From the NCBI GenBank assembly GCA_001824215.1, contig MHWS01000013.1, forward strand, positions 1-38,396: a stretch of DNA of 38,396 nucleotides, in the 5' to 3' direction. The position numbers and the translations under genes were made by a program. The DNA is from Candidatus Zambryskibacteria bacterium RIFCSPLOWO2_12_FULL_39_16 (GTDB lineage Bacteria > Patescibacteriota > Minisyncoccia > Phycocordibacterales > WO2-35-19). Below are positions 8,478-34,975 of this stretch, piece after piece. The notes under the pieces were generated by a model that searched no databases, was not told the origin of the DNA, and saw nothing but the letters and a program-made list of their open reading frames with translations. Each line of letters starts with the position of its first letter. Position 1 is the stretch's first letter.

Positions 8478-8516
8478 AAAATGAGCCTCGAGCGAAAATC
8501 CGCAGAGACTCATTTT
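8478..8516. terminator. convergent bidirectional terminator-like hairpin
   Basis: aaaatgag ... ctcatttt inverted repeat between convergent rpsT and the AlaE-like gene. Confidence 0.6.
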
Positions 8517-8980
8517 CTATTCGTGTGGTTGTTGTTAACGCCGGCAATCTTCTTCCGGCACCAATTAAGGATCAGACCGTAAAACCATCCCAGAAGCAGA
8601 CCTTCTGTAAAATAAAATTTAGCTGCAAACAAAGTTTTTGTTATATTTGCGCCTGCCAACAGAGCACTGGGAATATAGATTGATTGTTGGTAGATTGAAA
8701 CACTGAGAGCGTCAGCGATACCTTCTTGAAGCCAACGTTTTGGGCTGCCTCGAAAAATCTTTCTAATGAAATGGGTCAATTTGGCACAATAGATATGAGC
8801 CAAAGCAGTTTTCAAGCAGAAATAGATTAAACGGGTTTCTGCCCATTGATTGAAAGTTGAACCAGAATAATGCATCTCGAGGATAATTGATATTGTCCCC
8901 GTCCAGACACCATAGAGAAGCATGGCAACTGTATCCGCAATAACCAGAGGCCAATTTATCCGTGCCAGCAACTTCCTCAT
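8510..8980 (-). CDS. L-alanine exporter AlaE-like membrane protein (track gives 9016; 8980 preferred)
   Basis: ADTVAMLLYGVWTGTISIILEMHYSGSTFNQWAETRL and IADALSVSIYQQSIYIPSALLAGA...GWFYGLILNWCRKKI match my recollection of AlaE (ADTFAMVVY..., ADILAYVTFQSPVYVAIL...GYFLDYCRRLF). AGAAAGGAGG precedes ATG at 8980. Confidence 0.7.
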   Translation of the reverse strand: MRKLLARINWPLVIADTVAMLLYGVWTGTISIILEMHYSGSTFNQWAETRLIYFCLKTALAHIYCAKLTHFIRKIFRGSPKRWLQEGIADALSVSIYQQSIYIPSALLAGANITKTLFAAKFYFTEGLLLGWFYGLILNWCRKKIAGVNNNHTNRK

Positions 8981-9111
8981 CCATCCTCCTTTCTGAAAAG
9001 GTTGGAATTTTAACAACCAAAGAACTGCCTGCGAGAATATTATCTCGGTGTGGGTATGGAAGTCAATAAAAATTTATAAGTCTTTCTTTTTAGTGGCAAG
9101 TTTTTGAAATT

Positions 9112-29281: not shown

Positions 29282-29370
29282 TAAAAAATCACAAATAAAT
29301 TTTATCCGCTTCACCCCGTTCGCTTTGCTCACAGGACCCTCACGGCTCAAAATTTGTTTGTGATTTTTTA
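29282..29370. terminator. long convergent terminator stem with an unusual GC-rich 45-nt insert
   Basis: taaaaaatcacaaataaatttt vs taaaaaatcacaaacaaatttt (reverse complement of 29349..29370): 21/22 pairs. Confidence 0.75.
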
Positions 29371-29937
29371 TACTCGTTCGACGTACTCTCCGTTTTCGGT
29401 ATTGATGACGATAGTATCACCTTCTTCTATAAAAAGGGGAGCGTTGACGGAAGCACCAGTCTCCACTTTTACAACCTTGTTGCCTCCTTGAGCAGTGTTG
29501 CCCTTCATGTTTGGCGGCGCTTCAATCACTTTGAGCTCTACTTTTATGGGGAACTTAACCCCGATTATTTTTTCTTGGAATACCATGGCTTTTGCCATAG
29601 AGTCTTTTTTTAAAAATTTTACACCACCACTCATCTGCTCTTCTTTTAAAGCAAATCTTTTGGAAGGGTCGCCTTCTTCGTGGAACCAATAATCTCCCTT
29701 TTGAGCATAAATAAATTTTATATTTTTGGTTTCAATATCAGCTTCTTCAGCCTTTTCCGATTGATGGAAAGAATATTCTGTAACCCTGCCGGTGATCAAG
29801 TTGCGCAGTTTAGTGGCATTGACCGGCTTTCGTTGTTGTTTGCGGAAGACGTGGCTTGCTACGACTTCCCACGGTTCACCATCAAATATGATTATTTTTC
29901 CGATTGTTATTTCACTATATTCAAGCATTGCTAGCAA
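29368..29937 (-). CDS. efp: elongation factor P (non-canonical tip loop)
   Basis: FDGEPWEVVASHVFRKQQRKPVNATKLRNLITGRVTEYSF...; three-domain length; GNTAQGGNKVVKVETGASVNAPLFIEEGD. Confidence 0.93.
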   Translation of the reverse strand: MLAMLEYSEITIGKIIIFDGEPWEVVASHVFRKQQRKPVNATKLRNLITGRVTEYSFHQSEKAEEADIETKNIKFIYAQKGDYWFHEEGDPSKRFALKEEQMSGGVKFLKKDSMAKAMVFQEKIIGVKFPIKVELKVIEAPPNMKGNTAQGGNKVVKVETGASVNAPLFIEEGDTIVINTENGEYVERV

Positions 29938-29967
29938 AATATAGCCTATTTAAGCCATAAAATCCAC

Positions 29968-29996
29968 TTGACAAATAAAGTATATGGGTGTATAAT
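29968..29996 (+). promoter_or_regulatory. perfect-consensus sigma70 promoter
   Basis: TTGACA-17 nt-TATAAT. Confidence 0.88.
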
Positions 29997-30017
29997 TGGG
30001 AGTAGAGGTAACATAAA

Positions 30018-30194
30018 ATGGACCTGGATAAATTGAAGAAAATTCTCGAAGGTGCCACGGAATTGGCATGGTCTCACGGTGGCGCTGGTCGTTTCAATGG
30101 GAATCCATCGATTGTAATTCCACTTGTTGCGAAAGCCCTTCAGAACTGTAATCCGGAAGATTTGCAGAGGCTTCTTTTGGAAGCCGCGAAATAA
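30018..30194 (+). CDS. 58-aa orphan small protein
   Basis: Own reading: MDLDKLKKILEGATELAWSHGGAGRFNGNPSIVIPLVAKALQNCNPEDLQRLLLEAAK*; preceded by agagg; between a consensus promoter and a terminator. Not in the ORF track (<60 aa). Confidence 0.7.
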   Translation: MDLDKLKKILEGATELAWSHGGAGRFNGNPSIVIPLVAKALQNCNPEDLQRLLLEAAK

Positions 30195-30240
30195 CCGCCG
30201 AGAGCAGGGAACTGCTCCGGCGGTTCCTTGTTTTTATTTT
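30193..30240 (+). terminator. strong intrinsic terminator
   Basis: aaccgccg-a-gagcag-ggaa-ctgctc-cggcggtt then ccttgtttttatttttt. Confidence 0.85.
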
Positions 30241-30243
30241 TTC

Positions 30244-31371
30244 TTATTTTTCACTATCAGTTTCTTCACTCTCATTTTTGACTGGTACGATTGACCCGCC
30301 GTTTTCTATAAGTTTTTTGCGGATGAGTTTCAAAATTTCTTCGGCAATTTTTTTATTGGTTTTGTCTTTCAAAAACTGGCGGGTGGCATCATAGCCGCGG
30401 CCGAGTTTTACCTCGTCTTTTGCATTAGCTCCGGCAGGGAGATAACCATAGCTGTTTCCAGATTTATGTATGATTCCCATTTTTTCTCCTAAAGCTATTA
30501 TCTCTCCTTCTTTTGAAATACCTTCGTTATACATCAGGTCAAATTCAGTTTGTTTAAATGGGGCGGCTACTTTGTTTTTTACCACTTTGACCCTAATCCT
30601 GCCACCCATTATTTCATCACCTTTCTTTATTTGAGCGATTCTCCTTATATCAAGCCTGACACTGGTGTAAAATTTTAATGCTTTGCCTCCAGGAGTGGTT
30701 TCTGGATTTCCAAACATTACCCCGATCTGCATTCTTATTTGATTGATAAAAATAACAACGGTTTTTGATTTAGCGACAATGGCTGTCAACTTACGTAAAG
30801 CCTGAGACATAAGCCTGGCCTGCTTACCGACATGATAAGCTCCCATATCACCCTCGATTTCATCTTTTGGTGTTAGTGCCGCTACTGAATCAACAACAAT
30901 AACGTCTATTTTGCCGGAACGAACCAATGATTCTACGATATCAAGTGCCTGCTCGCCATTATCCGGTTGGGAGATGAGAAGTTGGTCTATCTTTACTCCT
31001 AGTTTTTGAGAATACTCAGGGTCCATGGCATGCTCGGCATCTATAAAGGCGCAAATCCCGTCAAGTTTTTGAGCTTCAGCTATAATATGCAGAGCCAAGG
31101 TTGTCTTGCCACTTGACTCCGGCCCAAATATTTCTATGATCCTACCTCTTGGCACACCTCCTACTCCGAGAGCCGCGTCCAAGCCGATTGACCCGGTGGG
31201 AATGGAGTTAACGTCTACATGAGGCTTGTCGCCAAGCATCATTATAGAATCATCTCCGAATTTTGTTTTTATTTCTCTGACGGCGTCTTCCACTCCGGAA
31301 TAATCCTTTTTCTCCACCGTTTCGTTTTTTGCCTGCCTGCCGGTAGGCAGGGCTGTTTTTCCTTTTTTCAT
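30244..31371 (-). CDS. recA: recombinase RecA
   Basis: [83 protein letters not shown]. Confidence 0.98.
31332..31351. repeat. GC-rich palindromic element encoding LPTGRQA in the RecA N-terminus
   Basis: cctgcctgccggtaggcagg, palindromic except one G/T pair. Confidence 0.85.
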
Positions 31372-34171: not shown

Positions 34172-34200
34172 TTGACACTTTTAGTCTTATAATATATAAT
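34172..34200 (+). promoter_or_regulatory. perfect-consensus sigma70 promoter
   Basis: TTGACA-17 nt-TATAAT. Confidence 0.85.
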
Positions 34201-34234: not shown

Positions 34235-34975
34235 ATGTCTCATATGAATGAAATAATTCAAAAAAACATAGATTTTCTAAATATATATAATAGATCTTAC
34301 AGGTTAGCAGCTGCAGTTTTTATGATTTCTAATGTAATGGATCAAGATGAAGAGTTGAGGACAAAGATAAAAAATTTGTCCCTTGAACTTGTTTCTATGT
34401 CTGTTAATTTAAAAGACACTGATTTTGGATATGCCAAAAAATTGACAGAAAATATTGAAAAAAATTCTTTAGAGCTGATGTCTATGCTTGATATAGCTTC
34501 TATAGCTGGTCTTATATCTAAAATGAATGCCGGTATCCTTAAAGAAGAATTTAAATCTTTTATTTTAGAGCTTGGGAAATTTACCGAAAAATTTGAGGAC
34601 AATAAAAACCTTTCTGTTAGGAGTATATTTGAACAATCTCAAATTTTAAATACTAACAATAATCTGGAGAAAACGAATTTTAGATATGGTGTTAAAGATA
34701 ATCTATTATACGGAGGTGAAATGAGAAATATGCAGACAAATGGCAAAGAAAATGGAGGGAAAAACGGTAACGGACACAAGAGAAAGGATTTAAGAAAAAA
34801 TACTATACTGGAATTTATTAAAGGACATAATAATGTCAGCATAAAAGATATAGTGCCAAATATCATCGGTTGTAGTGAAAAAACGGTTCAAAGAGAGCTG
34901 ATATCGCTTATAAATGAAAACAAAATAAAGAAAATAGGGGAAAGAAGGTGGAGTAAATATTCTATTGTCACATAA
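34235..34975 (+). CDS. helical N-terminal domain + C-terminal HTH (DeoR-like) protein
   Basis: RKNTILEFIKGHNNVSIKDIVPNIIGCSEKTVQRELISLINENKIKKIGERRWSKY wHTH; helical N-terminal region; possible internal start MNEIIQ. Confidence 0.75.
   Translation: MSHMNEIIQKNIDFLNIYNRSYRLAAAVFMISNVMDQDEELRTKIKNLSLELVSMSVNLKDTDFGYAKKLTENIEKNSLELMSMLDIASIAGLISKMNAGILKEEFKSFILELGKFTEKFEDNKNLSVRSIFEQSQILNTNNNLEKTNFRYGVKDNLLYGGEMRNMQTNGKENGGKNGNGHKRKDLRKNTILEFIKGHNNVSIKDIVPNIIGCSEKTVQRELISLINENKIKKIGERRWSKYSIVT

Follow-up and report, generated by a model that had tools for sequence, protein, structure and literature searches.

A probable moron-like expression slot with exchangeable cargo between efp and recA in Candidatus Zambryskibacteria

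Chromosomal integration hotspots hold variable accessory content flanked by core genes, and the variable proteins of diversity-generating retroelements (DGRs) belong to a kind that is hypermutated by the cell on purpose. The proteome of the tiny, mostly uncultivated bacteria considered here is largely uncharacterised. DGRs are common in Patescibacteria (PMC8144416). Morons are recognised by a promoter and terminator of their own, a deviating GC content and different genes at one location (PMC2920897).

The locus described here lies in a window of 38,396 nucleotides (the whole stretch of DNA that was analysed) from a 539-kb Ca. Zambryskibacteria genome (G000; 26 contigs, 95% complete). Here efp and recA are both minus-strand genes, and the gap between them is occupied by a plus-strand unit at 29943-30240. 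The explanation we consider probable is that this unit represents a filled instance of a moron-like expression slot in the chromosome, the cargo of which can be exchanged. The parts of the locus are as follows.

29368..29937, minus strand: efp (elongation factor P), an ORF and the conserved left neighbour of the slot
29943..29956, plus strand: upstream element AGCCTATTTAAGCC, 11 bp 5' of the -35 hexamer
29968..29996, plus strand: promoter TTGACA-N13-GGTG-TATAAT, hexamers matching at 12/12 positions
30004..30008, plus strand: ribosome-binding site AGAGG, read from sequence, 9 nt before the ATG
30018..30194, plus strand: ORF58, 58 codons, the cargo (ORF call, coding test, AlphaFold2)
30193..30240, plus strand: intrinsic terminator, hairpin 30193-30225 and then a T-rich tail
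30244..31371, minus strand: recA (Pfam RecA, E 9e-136), the conserved right neighbour of the slot

The first-pass annotation had read this stretch as a perfect TTGACA-17-TATAAT promoter, a leader with agagg, a 58-codon ORF and a textbook terminator set between efp and recA, and each of these parts is borne out, both neighbour assignments included. The -35 hexamer TTGACA (29968-29973) and the -10 hexamer TATAAT (29991-29996) enclose a spacer of 17 bp, and transcription is predicted to start at ~30003. Base composition leads one to expect ~0.03 perfect 17-spaced sites per 38 kb, versus two in the 18.4 kb scanned. Among the promoter-like sites listed, beyond which there are nine weaker ones, none lies on the minus strand over the unit. 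The second perfect TTGACA-17-TATAAT promoter in the window (34172-34200, plus strand) is without GGTG and precedes a gene (34235-34975, plus strand) whose 246-aa product weakly matches a DeoR-type HTH at its C-terminus (E 0.0014, which misses the cut-off); a similar protein behind a related promoter is found in G002. An AlaE-like L-alanine exporter encoded at 8510-9016 on the minus strand (Pfam E 1e-15) is surprising for so reduced a genome.

Across the order, efp is present in 360 of 397 genomes, and the DNA upstream of it was taken from 114 genomes for a survey of the slot. recA faces efp in 90 of these 114. Within the sample, slots were found only in families f1, f45 and f50, where a shared element and promoter begin the gap, as a rule at 34 to 44 bp from efp and at a greater distance in two cases. 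The common outer parts are AGCYTATTTAAGCC, ~11 bp, TTGACA-N13-GGTGTATAAT, a ribosome site and usually a hairpin ending in ..CCGGTTTTCTGCTTTT. Between the window's genome and G123, which belong to different families, the 5' frame shows 76% identity and the terminator 87%. Of the 114 efp regions, 14 have the AGCYTATTTAAGCC element, and they are the regions in which the unit or a remnant of it is present; the 187 kb of adjoining sequence has 2 matches. The window's version has an exact copy in G282 and a near-exact one in G007, and is a possible candidate for a regulator site. The palindrome CCTTAWWWTAAGG was rejected as a general site, its frequency in the window being that of chance. Ten slots are filled, with ten different genes, one per species, and others hold remnants or a transposase-like gene:

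G000 (the window's genome): 58-aa protein (ORF58)
G123: 50-aa membrane protein
G008: 97 aa
G001 (sister species): 208 aa, DGR variable protein whose template repeat is adenine-mutated
G282: 81 aa
G373: 82 aa
G303: 43-49 aa (two possible starts)
G259: 61 aa
G281: about 68 aa, promoter drifted off the class consensus
G358: 89 aa, promoter drifted off the class consensus
G007 (remnant): -35 and terminator left, nothing between
G006 (remnant): few codons left
G003, G004, G005, G302 and G389 (remnants): parts of the frame left
G322: transposase-like gene directly behind the promoter

By sequence comparison, a constant frame can thus be shown to have been kept across three families, with a gene inside that appears unrelated between species or lost in the seven slots that hold remnants only. 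The comparison joins distant species and metagenomic assemblies, and single exchange events were not caught because the species compared are far apart; a pattern like this could also arise from deletion combined with an independent gain, or from rapid divergence. The main rival is a single ancestral small protein that evolved beyond visible homology with no swapping at all. It fits an orthologous frame, and several f45 and f50 cargos are alike in kind, being short with one or two TM stretches. We nevertheless regard it as unlikely, since the cargos range from 43 to 208 aa and from small soluble through one-TM and two-TM proteins to a variable protein of a DGR, accompanied by a template repeat, pairwise comparison of eight of them revealed no protein similarity (all z < 2), and their raised GC suits import better than drift.

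ORF58 itself runs from an ATG at 30018 to a TAA at 30192-30194, inside the terminator stem. Its in-frame codon score, with codon usage trained on the neighbouring genes, is 0.33 per codon, which can be set beside 0.35 +/- 0.12 for true-frame windows of the neighbours and -0.68 +/- 0.29 for wrong frames, and 3% of its base shuffles are stop-free. By codon usage, ORF58 is coding. The protein has no recognisable family, as had been stated earlier: Pfam, PHROGs, PADLOC and NCBIfam gave no match, the PDB sequences nothing significant, and the genome collection, IMG/VR and plasmids no relatives. The first-pass annotation had also looked to protein conservation in related genomes, which did not emerge; at E <= 0.01 the 397 genomes of the order returned only ORF58 itself and one short match in G015 (E 8e-4; 36 residues within an unrelated 429-aa frame), which was taken as chance. 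The absence of protein conservation does not imply a non-coding RNA here, because the slot is conserved across families and its cargo replaced. Structure prediction, likewise proposed, was carried out with AlphaFold2 in single-sequence mode and gave three short helices at moderate confidence (mean pLDDT 68); no TM-like stretch appeared in the hydropathy count.

A second alternative, judged quite improbable, is de novo birth, in which ORF58 would be a functionless chance ORF between an old promoter and an old terminator. The lack of a homologue in the databases searched and the frequency of decayed and empty slots are in its favour, but the codon usage of ORF58 matches host coding sequence, its GC content is 0.46 versus 0.37 for the window, and the ORF begins 9 nt past a ribosome site and ends in the terminator stem.

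The promoter of the slot belongs to a class that was followed genome-wide with the signature TTGACA-N13-GGTGTATAAT (16 fixed bases, at most one mismatch), the cargo being taken as the first gene near a class promoter to have a clear ribosome site. The class is present in 175 of 397 genomes, with up to 13 copies per genome and a near-empty reversed control. Mean cargo GC is 0.49 versus 0.40 for the flanks (higher in 49/55), GC3 is 0.54 versus 0.39, and 47 of 62 cargos are singletons. Pfam recognised 5 families in 57 cargos, with NUDIX alone convincing, versus 84 in 40 neighbouring ORFs, a control that is not size-matched because the neighbouring ORFs are longer (median about 220 aa). A crude hydropathy count divided the 62 cargos into 22 soluble, 24 TM-like, 3 lipoproteins and 13 of a 200-aa type. 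Outside the slot, then, the predicted targets of the class promoter can be shown to be mostly Pfam-less, GC-raised genes, DGR variable proteins included. The promoter is not specific to accessory genes, since its sequence comes close to the sigma-70 ideal and closely similar versions serve nusA and secE-nusG. The earlier picture of a self-contained unit with an orphan gene stands in that a small protein has a promoter-terminator unit to itself; it had missed that this unit is one member of a slot and promoter class. No description of the class was found in the literature searched, which covers a minority of subscription papers.

Several further observations concern the class. AGA at +6 to +13 after TATAAT occurs in 22 of 49 exact class promoters versus 12 of 97 viral matches, which is possibly a start-region preference. 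Class matches inside smpB, upstream of tmRNA, were set aside as coding sequence; TTGACA..CGGTGTATAATAAAGGTAGA is kept there within the apparent smpB coding sequence, 180-260 nt 5' of the tmRNA gene (L138, G000:C5:7298; L139, G007:C4:44103; and orthologues elsewhere in the family), and this internal match may double as the tmRNA promoter. At L048 (G002:C8:20678) and L054 (G002:C11:67980) the class promoter is followed almost at once by a hairpin, with an ORF that is absent or of three codons, as in emptied units. The window's own genome has two further units, L470 (G000:C4:9442) and L471 (G000:C5:39860), with hydrophobic orphan proteins of 110 and 82 aa as cargos, adjoining an apparent typA and an apparent phage-integrase-family (Xer-like) gene.

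About a fifth of the class-driven genes are of DGR type. In total, 11 cargos of the 200-aa type have a second copy of their own 3' end just downstream, and the changes fall at A positions of the copy in 14/15 cases for G001, 16/17 for L127, 17/18 for L100 and 22/23 for L093, a few others being noisier. Downstream copies with such A-biased changes are, in sequence terms, a DGR signature. At L012, L038, L058, L078, L121, L132 and others, the stretch 3' of the 200-aa cargo, which separates the variable gene from the template repeat, is rich in pyrimidines and contains repeated CTTTGGAC-like words. ORF58 is not a DGR target: the 3.6-kb locus has no template repeat near it, and the reverse transcriptase family PF00078 has no match in the window's genome at its 95% completeness, with matches in 6 of the 9 genomes searched. 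A homologous relationship between ORF58 and the DGR variable proteins at their N-terminal domain was rejected at an hhalign probability of 0.2%.

A phage-derived moron or prophage remnant would likewise come with a promoter and terminator of its own, a GC content that deviates and different genes at the same location (PMC2920897), and is a very improbable source of the unit: efp and recA flank it directly, ORF58 has no relative in IMG/VR or phages (two Gordonia phages matched at E 0.1 at best, judged chance) and no PHROG match, and the unit with its upstream element is absent from 97 viral promoter matches. At least 120 stretches in IMG/VR contain the class promoter pattern, a raw count with no background set beside it, which was not taken as evidence of phage origin.

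The terminator hairpin folds at -26.4 kcal/mol (z -6.1), and it is near-identical at the efp-recA slot of G123, in another family. Exact matches to the terminator core are confined to the efp-recA slots of these two genomes; the core was rejected as a genome-wide repeat, its 2-mismatch matches being not far above the reversed control. A regulatory or dual-function RNA, the latter raised by the first-pass annotation, or a type I toxin mRNA is the least probable reading of all. A short transcript with a strong terminator and a whole-transcript fold at z -3.3 would suit it, but transcript structure beyond chance is the terminator only (ORF part alone z +0.55), Rfam has no match above gathering score for the unit, the codon usage is that of coding sequence and, different from a type I toxin, ORF58 is not a short hydrophobic peptide.

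For the expression slot with exchangeable cargo, which we prefer, the frame would give high, insulated expression to any gene placed in it; high expression of the present unit is inferred from sequence signals alone, and the terminator would keep its transcript out of recA. Since no flanking repeats were found at 29900-30300, cargo would be exchanged, once DNA has been taken up, through homologous recombination in the frame or in the core genes on either side of it. The predicted helical ORF58 protein might, speculatively, be an accessory factor that acts where the cell meets phages or host cells, as small membrane proteins, lipoproteins and hypervariable proteins are among the cargos of the same class. 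A broader scheme is offered tentatively and is more doubtful than the slot itself: genome-wide plug-in slots under one promoter class could display species-specific small and hypermutated DGR proteins, with a conserved upstream site at efp-recA that a dedicated regulator may bind and with ORF58 as an interface protein in a species that lost its DGRs. The promoter signature would mark presumably abundant, fast-replaced proteins, some of them DGR products, and so provide a sequence-only handle on likely interaction factors, while efp-recA offers a fixed locus for following cargo turnover.

Compared with known systems, the slot shares variable content between conserved neighbours with chromosomal integration hotspots, and differs in that its cargo is mostly one small gene in a constant expression frame instead of an island. 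Integron gene cassettes resemble it as exchangeable small orphan genes behind a fixed promoter, whereas the slot holds a single gene with no array and no flanking repeat, and a hairpin followed by a T-rich tail; judged by flanking repeats, the ORF58 unit bears no mark of an integron cassette. The DGR variable proteins of Patescibacteria (PMC8144416) share the promoter class, and one of them fills the slot of the sister species, whereas ORF58 has neither a template repeat nearby nor a PF00078 match in its genome. The phage moron resembles it as a lone gene that brings a promoter and a terminator along, has a deviating GC content and is one of several different genes at one location between conserved genes, here ten cargos. 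The ORF58 unit is chromosomal with no phage genes adjoining, and it is filed as moron-like and not as a moron because the three published traits are present and the phage context is not (PMC2920897); in the efp-recA slot, the frame is constant and the cargo alone changes.
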